A stretch of 64,000 nucleotides of DNA from Anaerolineae bacterium (GTDB lineage Bacteria; Chloroflexota; Anaerolineae; Aggregatilineales; Phototrophicaceae): positions 1,116,001 to 1,180,000 of the forward strand of contig JALHQT010000001.1 in assembly GCA_022841825.1 (NCBI GenBank), read 5' to 3'. This document shows, piece by piece, positions 24,640 to 30,996 of the stretch. The notes below the pieces were generated by a model that had not been told where the DNA came from, made no database searches, and saw nothing but the letters and a program-made list of their open reading frames with translations. Each line of letters starts with the position of its first letter. Positions within the stretch are counted from its first letter, which is position 1. The translations under genes were made by a program, and so were the position numbers.

Positions 24640-24954
24640 TTATGGCTCTCGGTGGAGTATCTTGCGGAATTTGTACCCGTAGATGATCACACCGCGTTTG
24701 CCTTCGGTCGTCAGCTTACGAGTGACCATCTCGACCCGGTCACCGATCTCAAGCGGTTGGTCGTCCAGATCAGTGATCTGCGCTGTGATCATCGGACCTT
24801 CGTCGAGTTTGACCAGCGCAACCACGTACGGAGCCTGATCATCGTACCCTTCGGGCGCTTCCTGCACAATCGTATAGGTATAGATTTCCCCCGTGCCCGC
24901 AAATGCGAAGCGCTCGCCCGGAATCTGGACATCGTGGCGCACTGAATCAGGCAT
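24640..24954 (-). CDS. DUF35 OB-fold protein (acyl-CoA partner of the HMG-CoA synthase/thiolase pair)
   Basis: This 104-aa protein is the OB-fold half of DUF35, with ALVKLDEGPMITAQITDLD and the closing VIIYGYKFRK. In methanogens a DUF35 protein bridges acetoacetyl-CoA thiolase and HMG-CoA synthase into one complex that channels the intermediate. There the zinc ribbon and the OB fold are one polypeptide. Here only the OB fold is present, and the ribbon part is a separate gene 11 bases upstream. ATG 24954 has AGGGG 8 bases ahead, better than the TTG at 24960. Its place after HMG-CoA reductase, synthase and thiolase supports the same role. Confidence 0.8.
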   Translation of the reverse strand: MPDSVRHDVQIPGERFAFAGTGEIYTYTIVQEAPEGYDDQAPYVVALVKLDEGPMITAQITDLDDQPLEIGDRVEMVTRKLTTEGKRGVIIYGYKFRKILHREP

Positions 24955-24965
24955 GGACAAATCCC

Positions 24966-25145
24966 CTAGCGCGAAGACGCGGGTTGATGAACTGCCTGGG
25001 CTTCCTGCGTCTCCAAATCAGTCCTGCGCTGGTACACAACCTGGGGAGCAGGTCGATTCTGCAAGCTGATATCGCCATTCTCATAACGAACGCCTTCGAG
25101 ACGATACCGCTGCGGCTTGACGCGCCAATGACGTGAAATTTGCAT
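24966..25145 (-). CDS. Small protein equivalent to the DUF35 N-terminal (zinc-ribbon) part, without cysteines
   Basis: This 59-aa frame runs from ATG 25145, with AAGGAAG 8 bases ahead, to TAG 24966-24968. It begins MQISRHWRVKPQRYRLEGVR, matching the start of DUF35 proteins, in which a YxLxGxxC..C ribbon follows. Here Tyr stands at the first Cys position and no Cys occurs anywhere. The usual FPPR is LQNR. The tail is Gln-rich and ends just before the OB-fold gene. It is either a genuine split subunit that lost metal binding or the remains of a gene broken by a stop. The good ribosome sites of both halves favour the first. Confidence 0.65.
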   Translation of the reverse strand: MQISRHWRVKPQRYRLEGVRYENGDISLQNRPAPQVVYQRRTDLETQEAQAVHQPASSR

Positions 25146-25279: not shown

Positions 25280-26434
25280 TCAGACCGTCAGGACATGCGT
25301 CACGACGGTGCTCGCCATCCCGCCAATATTCTGGATCAGCGCGCGCTGCGCACCCGCGATTTGGAGATCGCCCGCTGTGCCGCGCAGTTGCAGTGTCGCT
25401 TCGACCGCCTGGTAGACGCCCGTCGCGCCTACGGGATTGCCGCGCGCCTTAAGCCCGCCAAACGTGCTGATGGCGATCTGGGCATCACCGCCAATGCGAC
25501 CATCCGATGACAGCATCCATCCCTGCCCGTACGGCGCAAGACCAATTGCCTCCAGCGCGAGCGTGCTCAGGATCGTGTAGCTGTCGTGCATCTCGAACAA
25601 ATCGACATCGGAAGGCAGAATACGCGCCCGCGCGCACGCCGCCTCCGTCGAGCGCATCACCGCGCTCAAGCGCAGCAGTTCCTTTCGGTCGTGGATCGCC
25701 AGCGTATCCGTCGCGACGGCACTACCCGCGATCCGCACAGGCTGTGGCACCATGTCGGCAGCTCTATCGGCACGCGCCAGGATGACTGCTGCCGCACCAT
25801 CGCCATCCGGCGCGCCATCGAACAGGCTGACAGGTGACGCAACCATCGGCGCTCTGGCGAATGCGCCGGGCTTGATCTGGTTTCGATACATCGCATTGGG
25901 GTTCTTGCCAGCGTTGCGATGGGCATTGATGGAAAACCCCTCGAAGGCACTTAACGGCACACCGTATTCATGCATGTACCGCTGCATCAGGAGTGCCGCC
26001 TGCGCCGTGACGGTCGCACCCTGGATTGCTTCGTAGTCGGCATCCAGGCTAACGCTGCGTGCACGCACCCGCGCCGAAGCAACCATGTCCGTCGACTTCT
26101 CGACGCCCAACACCATCACGTTGTCCACTGCGCCACTGGCGACCGCCAGATAGCCAGCGCGCAGCGCGGCACCACCGCTGGCATCCGCAGCGTCCACTGT
26201 CCATGCCTCGATGCCACCCAGACCTGCATGATCGGCGATCAACGCGCCAATCTGCGACTGACCACTGATGGTCGCTGCGAACGCATTGCCCACATACAGC
26301 GCATTCACAGCGCTGATCGCCGCATCGTCCAACGCTGCGCGCGCCGCGACTGCCGCCAGATCGCGCAGACTGCTACCCCAGTGTTCCGCAACGGGCGTCT
26401 GCCCAATGCCGATGATTGCTACTTCATGCATCAT
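25280..26434 (-). CDS. SCP2/archaeal-type thiolase homologue with altered catalytic residues
   Basis: The 384-aa product matches archaeal acetoacetyl-CoA thiolases along its length: AIIGIGQT at the start, VLGVEKSTD, the loop EMHDSYTI with its His, and GLKARG..VGATGVYQ. Two key positions differ. The nucleophile loop, normally ACASG, reads AADASG with Asp84 (codon GAT). The late GHP/GHA motif is GNP with Asn333 (codon AAT). By family knowledge a thiolase with neither Cys nor His should not do standard Claisen condensation. It may serve as a structural or CoA-binding partner, or use other chemistry. It sits 2 bases after the HMG-CoA synthase gene. Confidence 0.8.
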   Translation of the reverse strand: MMHEVAIIGIGQTPVAEHWGSSLRDLAAVAARAALDDAAISAVNALYVGNAFAATISGQSQIGALIADHAGLGGIEAWTVDAADASGGAALRAGYLAVASGAVDNVMVLGVEKSTDMVASARVRARSVSLDADYEAIQGATVTAQAALLMQRYMHEYGVPLSAFEGFSINAHRNAGKNPNAMYRNQIKPGAFARAPMVASPVSLFDGAPDGDGAAAVILARADRAADMVPQPVRIAGSAVATDTLAIHDRKELLRLSAVMRSTEAACARARILPSDVDLFEMHDSYTILSTLALEAIGLAPYGQGWMLSSDGRIGGDAQIAISTFGGLKARGNPVGATGVYQAVEATLQLRGTAGDLQIAGAQRALIQNIGGMASTVVTHVLTV

Positions 26435-26436
26435 GC

Positions 26437-27531
26437 TTAATCCCGCAACAGTCCGCGAAAACGTGCATAGGTGGCATAATCGATCACGGTTCGGCGTGCG
26501 ATGTAGTCGCGTGTCTTTGGCGCGCGACCCGGCACGCCTTCAATACGTTCCGTCACCAGAAGGTCAAACGTATCGGAACCCGCGCCGCTGCCGTAGCTCA
26601 CCATCAAAATGCGGTCGCCAGGCTTGGCGATGTCGAGGATTGCCGTCAAGCCAATCATGCACGAACCGGAATAGACATTGCCGATCTCACCCGCCAGCAG
26701 CCCAGTCTTGATCTGTTCATCCTTGAATCCGAGCATTTTCGCCGCCCGCTCAGGGAACTTCACGTTTGGCTGATGAAACACCGCGTAGGCATAGTCCTCC
26801 GCCTTCGTGCCCATCATTTCCATCAACATGGCTGCGCTGCTCTGAACATGATGGAAGTACGCGGGTTCACCGGTAAAGCGCTCCCCGTGTGACGGATAGG
26901 TTTCATCCGCGCGCCGCCAGAAATCTGGCGTGTCGGTCACGAAACTGTAGCTTCCCTGGTAGATGGCGACCGACTCCTCGGCGGGACCGATGATGAATGC
27001 CGCGCCACCGCTGGCTGCCGTGTATTCGAGGGCGTCGCCAGGGCGTGACTGCGCCGTGTCCATGCCAATGCTCATCGTATACGTGCCCATCCCGCTGCCG
27101 ACGATGCCGATGCTCGCCTGGACTGCCTCGGTGCCCGCCTTACACGCGAACTCCCAGTCCGCCGCCTGAATGTTGGGCGACGCGCCGATGCTTTCCGCCA
27201 CAATCGTGCTGGTCGGCTTGACGGCATAAGGGTGGCTCTCGCTTCCTACCCAAATCGCGCGCAGTGCCGTCGGGTCGATACGGGCGCGGCTCAACGCATT
27301 ACGCGCTGCTTCAATCGACATCGTACAGACATCTTCGTCCAGACCTGCGACTGCTTTCTCCGTCACCGGACTGCCGCCAAGATTGTTCGTCCACACGCGC
27401 GCCACTTCTGCGCCCGGCAGGCGATAACGTGGCACGTATGCGCCGTAGCCAACGATCCCGACCTGACGATCCGGGCGCATCAGCAGCGATGCGGTCTTCG
27501 GCTGCGGGGTTCTTCCATTCAATTGCGACAT
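26437..27531 (-). CDS. Hydroxymethylglutaryl-CoA synthase, archaeal type
   Basis: HMG-CoA synthase adds acetyl-CoA to acetoacetyl-CoA, the second step of the mevalonate pathway. The 364-aa protein has the archaeal pattern [13 protein letters not shown], catalytic Cys130 in EFACKAGT, His253 in FHQPNVKFP and a conserved acidic loop [13 protein letters not shown]. All catalytic residues look intact, unlike in the thiolase next to it. ATG 27531 has AAGGAAG about 7 bases ahead. The order reductase-synthase-thiolase-DUF35 is that of a single pathway operon. Confidence 0.93.
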
Positions 27532-27623: not shown

Positions 27624-28913
27624 TCACTTCAACTCCATGACGATCTGTTTCGCCCGTTCCAGGCGAATATTCTTCTCCGCGATCATCTGCTCGGCAATCA
27701 CCGCGACCTGAGCGCCCTGCGCTCCGGCGGCAACCGCAAGCTGGCGGGCGTGCATTCGCATGTGCCCGTGCTGGATGCCGGTGGTCGCCAGTGCGCGAAT
27801 CGCGGCGAGGTTCTGTGCCAACCCCACCGCCGCCATGATCTCGCTCAACTGGCGCGCCGAAGTTATCGCCATAATCCTGAGCGCAATCTGCGCTGTGGGA
27901 TGTACGCGCGTCGCACCGCCGACGATGCCAACCGCCAGCGGCAGCTCGATGCTGCCGCGGAGATTACCCGCCTCGTCCTGCCACCAGCGCGTCAGGCTTC
28001 GGTACTGCCCGTCCCGCGCAGCATAGGCATGAGCGCCAGCCTCGACCGCCCGCCAGTCATTGCCGGTCGCCAGCACCACTGCGTCTATCCCGTTCATGAT
28101 CCCCTTGTTGTGGGTCGTCGCGCGATAAGGGTCGATCTCCGCGAAGACACCCGCCTCGACAATGGCACGGACTGCCTCTTCGCCAGTCACCGTCTCGGTC
28201 GCCAGCGAGGCTGCTGGAATCATGCCTTCCGCACGCGCCTTGCGCTGGTCGGTCAGATTACTCAGGATGCGCAGGTTGACCCGCCCACCCGTGATCTCCT
28301 CGACAAGCGGAGCAAGATGCTCGACCGCCGTGTTGACGGCGTTCGCGCCCATTGCATCGCGCGTATCGTACAGCAGATGCAGGATCAGCATTCCGCCAAG
28401 CGGGGTATCGACAAACGGGCGCACCTCCAGTCCGCGCGCGCCACCCCCATGCTTGACAATGCTGCCGCCGACGCGGTCCGCCTCTGCCAACAGTCGATCT
28501 TTCTGTGCCATGATCGCGCCCGCCGCGACGTAAACATCCTGTAGATCGAGCACCTGGATTTGACCGATCATCACAGGTTCGTCGCTGCTGCACGAAAAGC
28601 CGCCGCCATCACGAAACAGCCTGGCGGCGTTGCTGCACGCCGCGACGACAGACGGCTCCTCGATCACCATCGGTACGAGGACATCAACGCCGTTGATGAA
28701 AAAGTTCGTCGCCACGCCGAGCGGCAGCCCATAAACACCCACCACATTCTCAATCATGTGGTCGGCTTGCGCGGCATTTAAGCCATTGACGCCCAGCAGC
28801 GCCGCCTGCTCCTGTTTACTCAGGTCAGCCCACTGCGCGACGAGCGCTGCACGCTCGGTGAGAGGGCGTTTATAGAAACCGGAAATGCGTGATGTGTGTG
28901 CGGATGAAGTCAT
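27624..28913 (-). CDS. HMG-CoA reductase, class II
   Basis: This 429-aa enzyme reduces HMG-CoA to mevalonate, or runs in reverse in degraders. Class II features are the length, the early ENVVGVYGLPLGVATNF segment (catalytic Glu region), DAMGANAVNT, the NAD(P) loop and the C-terminal IQHGHMRMHA with catalytic His. It is the first gene of the minus-strand mevalonate operon. Class II enzymes are typical of bacteria, whereas the synthase and thiolase that follow look archaeal, so the operon is a mosaic. A promoter with perfect TTGACA lies just upstream. Confidence 0.94.
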   Translation of the reverse strand: MTSSAHTSRISGFYKRPLTERAALVAQWADLSKQEQAALLGVNGLNAAQADHMIENVVGVYGLPLGVATNFFINGVDVLVPMVIEEPSVVAACSNAARLFRDGGGFSCSSDEPVMIGQIQVLDLQDVYVAAGAIMAQKDRLLAEADRVGGSIVKHGGGARGLEVRPFVDTPLGGMLILHLLYDTRDAMGANAVNTAVEHLAPLVEEITGGRVNLRILSNLTDQRKARAEGMIPAASLATETVTGEEAVRAIVEAGVFAEIDPYRATTHNKGIMNGIDAVVLATGNDWRAVEAGAHAYAARDGQYRSLTRWWQDEAGNLRGSIELPLAVGIVGGATRVHPTAQIALRIMAITSARQLSEIMAAVGLAQNLAAIRALATTGIQHGHMRMHARQLAVAAGAQGAQVAVIAEQMIAEKNIRLERAKQIVMELK

Positions 28914-29143: not shown

Positions 29144-30286
29144 ATGCGCAGGGCACTTCTCACTTTCGCAATTTGTCTACTCGTCATCATCCAGAGCGCG
29201 AGCGCTCAGTCCAACACACCGCTTGTCCTGACGATCAACGGCGATCTCTGGGCGTGGAACGGCGACCCGGCAGGAGCGCCTGGTTCACTCACGACCTGGG
29301 GTTACAATGATCCGGGTGTCATCTCTCCCGACGGCAGCCGTATCGCCTACAACTCACTCGCCACGATTGTCGTCGATGCCCTGGCGCGAGTCGGCGGGCT
29401 GGCGGGGGGGGAACTGCCCAGCAACATCTGGGTGATCGATTTCAGCGGCAACGGCATTCGCGTCGCCGAACAACCGTCAGGTTCCTCGTTCATGACCGAA
29501 GGTGTGCCCGATTTTGGCGTCGTCCGCTCGTCACCCGCATGGTCGCCCGACGGCTCGCGTCTGGTGTGGGCTGAACAGACCTTCCCGAACCCGATTGACT
29601 CGCTGGTCGTCTACAATCTTGCCAGCGGCAGCGCCCAGACGATTGTCGCCAACCTGCCCCCCAGTGCAGGCGTCACCGCCCCAAAAGCGGTCGCCTGGGG
29701 ACGGACTGGCATCGTCATGCACGACATCCAAATGGGTGGCAACGGCAGTATGATCGACCTCTTCAGCGTCTATAGCCCGGAAGGCGCGCCAATCAGCAGT
29801 TTCCAGGTCGGAGCAGGACGCATTCTGCAATATTGGGCAGTGATGGACGACAACGGGCGAGAAGTGCTCGGCACCCTCTTTAACGATGGCGTCTGGGAAC
29901 TCTACGATCTCAACAGCGGTGCCTCTCAGATCCCTTCGGGTATCCCTGAACTCTTCAGCCCACTCAACGCGGGCGGATCGCTGGCGCTCTCGCCGGGGAT
30001 CAATGAGGTCGGTGGCTTTACCTGGCGTGCGCTCTCGTCGGATGGCACGATCCTGGCGGAGTTCGTCAGTGCGCCATACTTCATCCCCCAGCGCTATGCC
30101 CTCTCCCCGGATGGGCAGTCGGTCGCCTACAGCGACTTCCAGGAAGGGCAAAACACCTTCAGCGATGTGATCAACATCTGGCGCGAGGGCACGATTACCG
30201 TCATGCCCAATCCGGTGCAGTTCCCGCTTCTGGGCGGCGTTCAATGGGCACCCATCGCCTGGCGCGTGCGAGCAGGTGTCGGATGA
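29144..30286 (+). CDS. Secreted PD40/WD40-like propeller protein
   Basis: From ATG 29144 the 380-aa protein starts with a signal peptide (MRRALLTFAICLLVIIQSAS, cleavage after ASA). It then has propeller blades: VISPDGSRIAYNS, SPAWSPDGSRLVWAE, SLALSPG and YALSPDGQSVAYSD, ending in VQWAPIAWR. This resembles the proteins encoded at 425-3875 but sits in a different operon. It overlaps the MoaD-MoaE fusion by ATGA, which ties an exported propeller to a cofactor gene. I see no functional reason for that beyond shared transcription. Confidence 0.7.
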   Translation: MRRALLTFAICLLVIIQSASAQSNTPLVLTINGDLWAWNGDPAGAPGSLTTWGYNDPGVISPDGSRIAYNSLATIVVDALARVGGLAGGELPSNIWVIDFSGNGIRVAEQPSGSSFMTEGVPDFGVVRSSPAWSPDGSRLVWAEQTFPNPIDSLVVYNLASGSAQTIVANLPPSAGVTAPKAVAWGRTGIVMHDIQMGGNGSMIDLFSVYSPEGAPISSFQVGAGRILQYWAVMDDNGREVLGTLFNDGVWELYDLNSGASQIPSGIPELFSPLNAGGSLALSPGINEVGGFTWRALSSDGTILAEFVSAPYFIPQRYALSPDGQSVAYSDFQEGQNTFSDVINIWREGTITVMPNPVQFPLLGGVQWAPIAWRVRAGVG

Positions 30287-30996
30287 ACGTCAAAGTCCTG
30301 CTGTTCGCCACGCTTAAGGATGCGATTGGGCGGCGCGAAACGCTGCTCTTGATTCCTGCTGACACCGCGACCCTCGCGCAGGTACGTGAAGCGTTGGCTG
30401 CCCAACATCCGGAGCTGCGCCCCCATCTGGGGAGCGCCATTGGCGCGATCAACGAAGAATTCGGCGAGGCGAACGATGTGGTGAAGGACGGTGACACGCT
30501 CGCTTTTTTCCCGCCCGTCAGCGGTGGCACAGGCTACCCCGAAGTCTTCCGACTGGCAGACGAGCCGCTCGACCTGGACATGCTGATGGCGGAGATCACC
30601 GTGCCCGCGACGGGCGCAGTCTGTGTCTTCAGCGGGATGGTGCGTGGCGAAACGGCGGCAGAAACGGGCACGATTGAAACCCAGCAGTTGGAGTACGAAG
30701 CATACGCACCCATGGCACTTGCGAAAATGCGCCAGGTCGCGCGCGAAATTCGCGAACAGTACCCCGGTGTGCAGGGAATCGCCATCGTTCAGCGGGTCGG
30801 TCGGTTGAAGGTCGGGCAGAATACGATCCTGATCGCCTGTGGCAGCGGTCACCGCGACGGCGGATGCTTTGAGGCGGCGCGCTATGGCATCGACCGTCTC
30901 AAGCAGATCGTCCCCGTTTGGAAGAAAGAGACGCGCCCTGATGGCTCAAGCTGGGTTGAAGGCAGCTACCAGCCCACAAACGAGGACAAAAGGTAG
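30283..30996 (+). CDS. Fused molybdopterin synthase, MoaD-MoaE
   Basis: ATG 30283 overlaps the previous stop (ATGA). Residues 1-82 are MoaD, ending FFPPVSGG at 75-82. Residues from about 84 on are MoaE, with the substrate-binding GHRDGGCFEA and catalytic Lys region VPVWKKE. Molybdopterin synthase puts two sulfurs into cyclic pyranopterin monophosphate, using a thiocarboxylate on the free C-terminal Gly of MoaD. In the fusion that Gly-Gly is internal, so it must be freed by cleavage or another route must apply. The mycobacterial MoaX fusion is known to need cleavage at this point. Partners in the window are moaC (5790) and xdhC. Confidence 0.92.
   Translation: MNVKVLLFATLKDAIGRRETLLLIPADTATLAQVREALAAQHPELRPHLGSAIGAINEEFGEANDVVKDGDTLAFFPPVSGGTGYPEVFRLADEPLDLDMLMAEITVPATGAVCVFSGMVRGETAAETGTIETQQLEYEAYAPMALAKMRQVAREIREQYPGVQGIAIVQRVGRLKVGQNTILIACGSGHRDGGCFEAARYGIDRLKQIVPVWKKETRPDGSSWVEGSYQPTNEDKR

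Follow-up and report, generated by a model that had tools for sequence, protein, structure and literature searches.

Background

The complex of thiolase, DUF35 protein and HMG-CoA synthase (HMGS) is a known substrate-channelling machine. Among condensing enzymes, several dead partners have been described already, such as chain-length factors and the PhlA protein discussed below. The closest described system is the archaeal complex of Methanothermococcus thermolithotrophicus (6ESQ/6ET9), in which DUF35 bridges thiolase and HMGS, and both enzymes share a single CoA-binding site (excerpts of PMC12329534). In the homologous three-part complex PhlABC of Pseudomonas protegens, one condensing subunit is without catalytic residues: the HMGS-like PhlA has neither the Cys (Gly115) nor the Glu and is believed to be required for assembly of the complex, and the N-terminal tail of PhlB, the DUF35 protein, is buried between the partner enzymes (excerpts of PMC6392133). 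The Ltp2/Sal steroid aldolases also combine a thiolase fold with DUF35. In these the thiolase machinery is replaced, with a Tyr in a YDHF/YDCY motif; the zinc finger of Shy/Sal lies against thiolase helix 2 at the pocket (excerpts of PMC12329534). S. tokodaii ST0096 (4YZO) has a similar fold and a Ser aligned with the catalytic Cys, but keeps the GHP His. In a literature search of partial coverage, no report was found of a dead thiolase in a mevalonate complex, lost repeatedly alongside a second thiolase.

Features of the locus

The window, i.e. the whole stretch of Anaerolineae DNA that was analysed, is 64,000 nucleotides long. Five genes follow one another on its minus strand: HMG-CoA reductase (27624..28913; TIGR00532, 408.1 bits, cut-off 259.95), archaeal-type HMGS (26437..27531; TIGR00748, 533.7 bits, cut-off 353.35), an SCP2/archaeal-type thiolase of 384 amino acids (25280..26434; ATG start, no internal stop), a 59-aa ORF (24966..25145) and an ORF for the OB-fold half of DUF35 (24640..24960, starting with TTG at 24960 or ATG at 24954; PF01796 OB_ChsH2_C, E 2.4e-22). 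The genes for thiolase, DUF35 and HMGS thus adjoin one another, the gene set of the complex type. The 59-aa ORF (MQISRHWR...RYRLEGVRYENG) found no match in the Pfam search. It corresponds to the N-terminal segment of DUF35 (SRHWR..QRYRLEG) without the Cys residues of the zinc ribbon, and it is a separate ORF in relatives of the window's family too. Instead of a single DUF35 protein with zinc ribbon and OB fold, the window therefore holds the split pair that the first-pass annotation had mentioned, with the ribbon Cys lost.

The host genome has a size of 5.9 Mb, and the assembly is 95.7% complete. Genes for mevalonate kinase and a member of the diphosphomevalonate decarboxylase family scored above cut-off, and IspH found no match in this assembly, so that the mevalonate pathway is the isoprenoid route of the host as far as the assembly shows. 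Elsewhere in the window, a single ORF of 250 amino acids (30244-30996, plus strand) joins a ThiS/MoaD-like and a MoaE domain, i.e. a fused molybdopterin synthase.

The locus resembles the archaeal system in the kinds of protein, the thiolase fold and the archaeal-type HMGS, and its genes lie side by side. It differs in its thiolase, which lacks both the Cys and the GHP His, and in the DUF35 of the window's family, which is split and without its ribbon. PhlABC is a mirror image of the locus, with a dead HMGS-like PhlA and a live thiolase PhlC (excerpts of PMC6392133), whereas in the window the thiolase appears dead, the HMGS is intact and the setting is primary metabolism. From Ltp2/Sal it differs in having His283 (EMHDSY) where they have Tyr (motif from the excerpts of PMC12329534), and in its place in a mevalonate operon.

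Residues, family and fold of the thiolase

In an alignment to 7yvy and 6esq, the most similar thiolases of known structure, Asp84 (GAT, 26183..26185, minus strand) stands at the Cys of ACASG and Asn333 (AAT, 25436..25438, minus strand) at the His of RGHP or AGHA. The third residue, His283 of the EMHD motif (CAC, 25586..25588, minus strand), is kept. At position 84, each of the 29 relatives ranked highest after the window protein (55-66% identity) carries D, E, N or Q, always together with GNP. As these relatives agree and the reading frames are open, a sequencing error or frameshift was rejected. On all these points, AADASG and GNP with their codons, the retained EMHD His and the intact frame, the first-pass annotation had read the gene correctly; it had likewise found Cys and His in the neighbouring HMGS, where Glu98, Cys130 and His253 are all present.

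The protein matches the thiolase families PF22691 (130 bits) and PF00108 (53.7 bits) and stays under the curated NCBIfam cut-offs (NF053570, 324.5 of 600; NF004720, 382.5 of 420). Of the features of an acetoacetyl-CoA thiolase it has the fold and family and the HDxF-type His (His283), and lacks the nucleophilic Cys and the GHP His. An AlphaFold2 model, built from an alignment of 51 sequences, reached a mean pLDDT of 95.7 and a pTM of 0.95. It superposes on 6esq_A, the thiolase of the archaeal complex, with TM scores of 0.97/0.95 and an rmsd of 1.3 at 36% identity; the model indicates that the fold of the archaeal-complex thiolase is intact in the window protein. The solved structures closest to the model are 7yvy, followed by 6et9/6esq. 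The first of these, Pyrococcus furiosus PFC_04095 (7YVY), is the best solved match both by sequence (E 1.3e-97) and by Foldseek E-value (44% identity); the Pyrococcus enzyme retains ACASG and RGHP, unlike the window protein.

Distribution of degenerate copies

Relatives of the window thiolase occur in 283 of the 298 genomes of the class. From a sample of loci, 162 thiolases were extracted, of which 149 adjoin an HMGS or OB gene: 82 have Cys/His/His at positions 84/283/333, 66 are degenerate and one is cut by a contig end. The sample is biased towards relatives of the window, its first 90 loci being the best matches of the window protein, and the figures are counts, not frequencies. Among the degenerate states D/H/N is the most common (24), followed by G/H/F (8), E/H/N (6), D/H/H (5), C/H/N (4) and 15 rarer ones. 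Reading of 19 further genomes (three of them already known) added 12 degenerate copies (G281, G213, G263, G192, G243, G148, G016, G125, G202, G144, G288 and G253), one Cys/His/His operon copy (G120) and one truncated copy (G026); two others, G212 and G127, gave unlinked Cys/His/His copies only.

Outside the class, 45 genomes had a match and 28 were read. They yielded 23 operon thiolases (L304-L309, L316-L323 and L325-L333), 22 of them with HMGS seen beside them. All 23 are degenerate: 20 are G/S/D or G/T/D, and 22 have none of the three residues. The other five copies (L310, L311, L324, L334 and L335) carry Cys/His/His, and no HMGS was seen in the stretches around them. The genomes outside the class include G402, G507 and G444, which we take to be Chloroflexus aurantiacus J-10-fl, C. 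aggregans and Roseiflexus sp. RS-1. A further 53 named loci were read for their state and kept out of the counts, as they may repeat genomes already included. One locus with an E/H/N mevalonate operon like that of the window (L261, JAHHHY010000001.1) bears the name of a cyanobacterium, 'Pleurocapsa minor GSE-CHR-MK-17-07R', which appears to be a mislabelling.

The window protein belongs to an Asp/Asn type of 33 rows (18 from the window's order, including the window, and 15 from family f40), with D, E, N or Q at position 84 and N or D at 333. None of the 33 has Cys84 or His333. D or E stands at position 84 in 31 rows, H283 and N333 in 32 each, L130 in 30, and A or G at 146 in 32, so that the site is more conserved than the mean column (63%). 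From these columns the site looks re-packed rather than free. The first-pass annotation had taken the changes as more than simple decay, and the agreement of the 33 rows and the continuing purifying selection (see below) bear this out. It had also named homologues in the same clade with Cys and His as evidence that would speak against a degenerate site. None occurs among the 33 rows, but one copy from the window's order (L353, in G288) is D/H/H and keeps His333, and G212 and G127 (L350 and L343) show only an unlinked Cys/His/His paralog.

The fixed [D/E]84-His283-Asn333 counts against a dead subunit, because a dead pocket need not show such conservation. It would suit a different chemistry, in which the three residues work without an acyl-enzyme, for example in a malonyl-CoA decarboxylase, hydrolase or aldolase that serves HMGS. 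KAS III and chalcone synthase also have a His/Asn pair. That a thiolase fold with DUF35 can become an aldolase by way of other residues is seen in CtSal (Tyr302/Cys304) and TcLtp2 (Tyr294/Tyr344) (excerpts of PMC12329534). The Ltp2/Sal Tyr is however absent from the window protein, where His283 takes its place, and the other degenerate operon groups differ among themselves (G/H/F, G/H/D, S/H/D, G/S/D and G/T/D), so that there is no common new site; pocket columns 142 and 146 are altered too, and degeneration tracks the possession of a classical thiolase. On balance a different chemistry is unlikely. Its most specific form appears quite unlikely: Asp/Glu84-His283-Asn333 would be a new active site in the thiolase fold, coupled to HMGS by DUF35, which might for example decarboxylate malonyl-CoA and pass the product to the shared CoA site. 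If it were true, the mevalonate pathway would here be started by a reaction not described before.

Phylogeny

A gene tree was used in place of a species tree. Left out were L172 (which starts at residue 123), the unlinked L173 (about 35% identical) and L005 (32%), and the unlinked Cys/His/His copies; L032, L036 and L037 were retained although no HMGS was seen beside them. The tree of 151 rows, calculated without the three sites, requires at least eight changes of state. A tree of 194 rows, which also takes in thiolases found outside the class as well as unlinked paralogs and outgroups, requires a minimum of six. A third tree, of 94 rows with 19 columns removed and a mixture model, requires a minimum of seven, at least five of them forced by well-supported branches. 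Separate losses also occur among Cys/His/His relatives. By these trees the catalytic residues of the thiolase have been lost repeatedly, a conclusion that is not tentative.

In the 194-row tree, 75 wholly degenerate rows form one clade, which combines the window's order and family f40 with the G/H/F group and the operon thiolases found outside the class; its support is 93 (99 for a core of 72 rows). A single origin of this large clade is tentative, because long branches meet in the 194-row tree and a grouping of 44 rows is weak in the 151-row tree; the large dead group needs two changes in the 94-row tree, which may still be compatible with one origin.

Partner subunits

Active operons keep the HMGS Glu/Cys/His in 74 of 77 cases and degenerate ones in 64 of 65; the four exceptions are genes covered only in part. 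The three residues are likewise kept in 22 of 22 operons outside the class and in every operon read later that shows an HMGS.

In DUF35, a CxxC zinc ribbon is fused to the OB fold wherever an OB gene was found in an active operon (78 of 78). In the degenerate operons of the class, the script found CxxC in 35 of 51 and no CxxC in 16; on visual inspection, L038 and L208 turned out to retain a ribbon that is irregular or lies in another frame, which leaves about 14 clear losses (13 rows of the window's family and L022). The degenerate counts of both surveys, DUF35 and HMGS, include L172. Of the 23 degenerate operons outside the class, only L304 retains the ribbon Cys; the other 22 have lost them. 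Ribbon loss was seen in degenerate operons only. In five loci outside the class (L309, L320, L321, L325 and L330), about 0.4 to 0.9 kb lie between thiolase and DUF35 gene.

In the window's family the ribbon half forms an ORF of its own apart from the OB gene. The tail is kept and the zinc site lost, which fits the buried tail of PhlB and the position of the Shy/Sal zinc finger at the pocket. The Asp/Asn site was also considered as strictly tied to a split DUF35. This link was rejected: rows of family f40 are D/H/N and have a whole zinc-ribbon DUF35, and clear splits are those of the window's family.

Selection and erosion of the pocket

The dead thiolase copies are under purifying selection. 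Among 122 close degenerate pairs the median dN/dS was 0.107 for the thiolase and 0.086 for HMGS, and among 391 active pairs it was 0.150 and 0.137; the pairs overlap and many dS values are saturated. With its catalytic residues lost and the protein under purifying selection, the thiolase has the sequence features of a pseudoenzyme. Its dN relative to that of HMGS is 1.53 in dead and 0.94 in active pairs. Of the 121 columns that active copies conserve to at least 95%, the dead ones retain 103, and the remaining 18 are eroded, most strongly at 84, 142, 146, 333, 130, 335, 123 and 129 (F142, N146, A130, V335, T123 and A129 besides the catalytic positions).

The faster change relative to HMGS (1.53 vs 0.94), the lost zinc ribbon and the split DUF35 could also mark a relic, i.e. 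a gene on its way out that is kept by its operon position. Two genomes, both more than 95% complete, add to this: G212 from the window's family and G127 from the same order may have lost the gene altogether. Each gave one SCP2-type match (8 and 18 candidates scored; L350/L362 and L343/L363), an unlinked Cys/His/His protein, 62% identical to the host paralog described below and 50-52% to the window thiolase. The stretches read around these copies, 32 kb and 16 kb long, showed no HMGS, and no dead copy was found. These genomes may have lost the dead subunit, or their assemblies may miss it, and their HMGS, if present, may do without a dead thiolase. In genus g10, the D/H/N thiolases L032, L036, L037 and L312 stand apart from the operon: the sequence read around them (16 kb for L312) contains neither HMGS nor DUF35. 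Both G212 and G127 and the copies L032, L036 and L037 count against the scaffold role proposed below. A relic is nevertheless very unlikely, given that none of the listed matches has an internal stop, that the median dN/dS is about 0.11, that the dead clade extends beyond the class and that the fold and 103 of 121 conserved columns are kept.

A weak residual thiolase activity, with another side chain in the role of Cys84, is extremely improbable. Five of the 69 degenerate rows keep Cys84 and may be partly active. Apart from this position, no Cys is conserved across the 69 copies; the commonest Cys columns, filled in 16 to 21 of them, are present in active copies too. Another Cys as the nucleophile, which the first-pass annotation had considered, was rejected on this sequence comparison. 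The homologous PhlC is inactive after a change of Cys88 to Ala or Ser (excerpts of PMC6392133).

Classical thiolases in the same genomes

A classical thiolase was defined as a match to PF00108 at E 1e-30 or better, with up to eight candidates scored per genome of the class. By this definition 260 of 298 genomes have one, and none was among the scored candidates in 38. These 38 genomes hold 31 operon-linked thiolases, 30 of them Cys/His/His and one cut before residue 84 (L172); of the remaining seven, G187 has only a distant unlinked relative and six gave no match at 1e-40. Outside the class, two of 29 genomes (G306 and G332) are without a classical thiolase, and both carry Cys/His/His copies. 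Every one of the 104 degenerate copies (69 tree rows, 12 found later and 23 from outside the class) comes from a genome that has a classical thiolase. For 30 of the degenerate genomes the best classical thiolases were inspected, and all show CGSG and GHP.

A Fisher test on the tree set (69/0 vs 52/30) gave p 6e-10, with rows that are not independent and kinship ignored. In a Pagel-type model on the gene tree with irreversible degeneration, the dependent fitted better than the independent version (LRT 24.6, 3 df, p 1.9e-5), with degeneration rates of 0.155 without and 0.897 with a classical thiolase; this fit leans on the absence of losses of classical thiolases in dead lineages. With only the degeneration rate made dependent, p was 0.0013, the rate without a classical thiolase being at the lower bound and that with one 1.02. 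An independent-pairs test found four supported pairs, of which about one differed in the second trait in the same direction and about three showed no difference (median p of the sign test 1). On its own the rule that a dead copy implies a classical thiolase is weak, because classical thiolases are common (260/298).

The host genome encodes two classical thiolases (L001 and L002) with Cys and GHP motifs, and an SCP2-type paralog of the active Cys/His/His type (L296:7564-8724), which passes NF004720 (457.3) and not NF053570 (406.8). The first-pass annotation had suggested looking for a second, normal thiolase in this genome, and these three are the result. The genes plsX and fabF adjoin the paralog (L296:5127-8724) and were not seen beside unlinked copies in the other stretches read for comparison. 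A further thiolase-like protein of the host (L005, G000:C3:321433-322098) has G at 84, a Tyr in the HDxF position and GAP instead of GHP; judged by these residues it is a candidate Ltp2/Sal-like aldolase.

Thiolases of the SCP2/archaeal kind are dimers or tetramers, and in a mixed dimer the stand-alone Cys/His/His paralog could supply the activity that the dead subunit has lost. Such paralogs are encoded in the host genome and in families f32 and f56 (L174, L276-L291). A paralog is not general, however, since the other two genomes of the window's genus, G055 and G083, gave one SCP2-type match each with all their 15 and 13 candidates scored; a mixed dimer is for this reason very improbable. The supply of acetoacetyl-CoA by an SCP2-type paralog alone, as a general rule, was rejected on the same matches.

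Proposed role of the thiolase

The most probable reading, to which we assign a probability of roughly 0.7, is that the window thiolase is a pseudoenzyme that serves as scaffold of the thiolase/DUF35/HMGS complex, with acetoacetyl-CoA made by another thiolase. This agrees with the first-pass suggestion of a scaffold or CoA carrier supplied from elsewhere, which draws support from the distribution of the degenerate copies, purifying selection, the intact HMGS and the erosion of the pocket. We infer that the complex forms in these bacteria, that its thiolase is inactive and that the substrate has an outside source. A thiolase subunit without Cys would be unable to form acetyl-Cys and hence to make acetoacetyl-CoA by the thiolase mechanism. 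The dead subunit would be retained as a structural partner that HMGS still uses; in the archaeal complex the CoA site is shared, for which reason HMGS could not easily shed its thiolase neighbour. HMGS would receive acetoacetyl-CoA by diffusion, as free substrate made by a classical thiolase or by a stand-alone paralog of the active SCP2 type, and channelling from thiolase to HMGS would have been given up. In some lineages catalysis may have been lost first, then the zinc ribbon of DUF35, and then, in the window's family, DUF35 would have been split into two ORFs.

Significance

If the thiolase died several times and was kept each time, the complex would be worth having even without channelling, which would point to a structural debt of HMGS that follows from the shared CoA site. 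The dozens of paired live and dead operons would offer a natural experiment on how a pseudoenzyme originates after redundancy. For the organisms themselves, the operon thiolase would not be the source of acetoacetyl-CoA across much of the Chloroflexota, what we take to be Chloroflexus and Roseiflexus probably among them.
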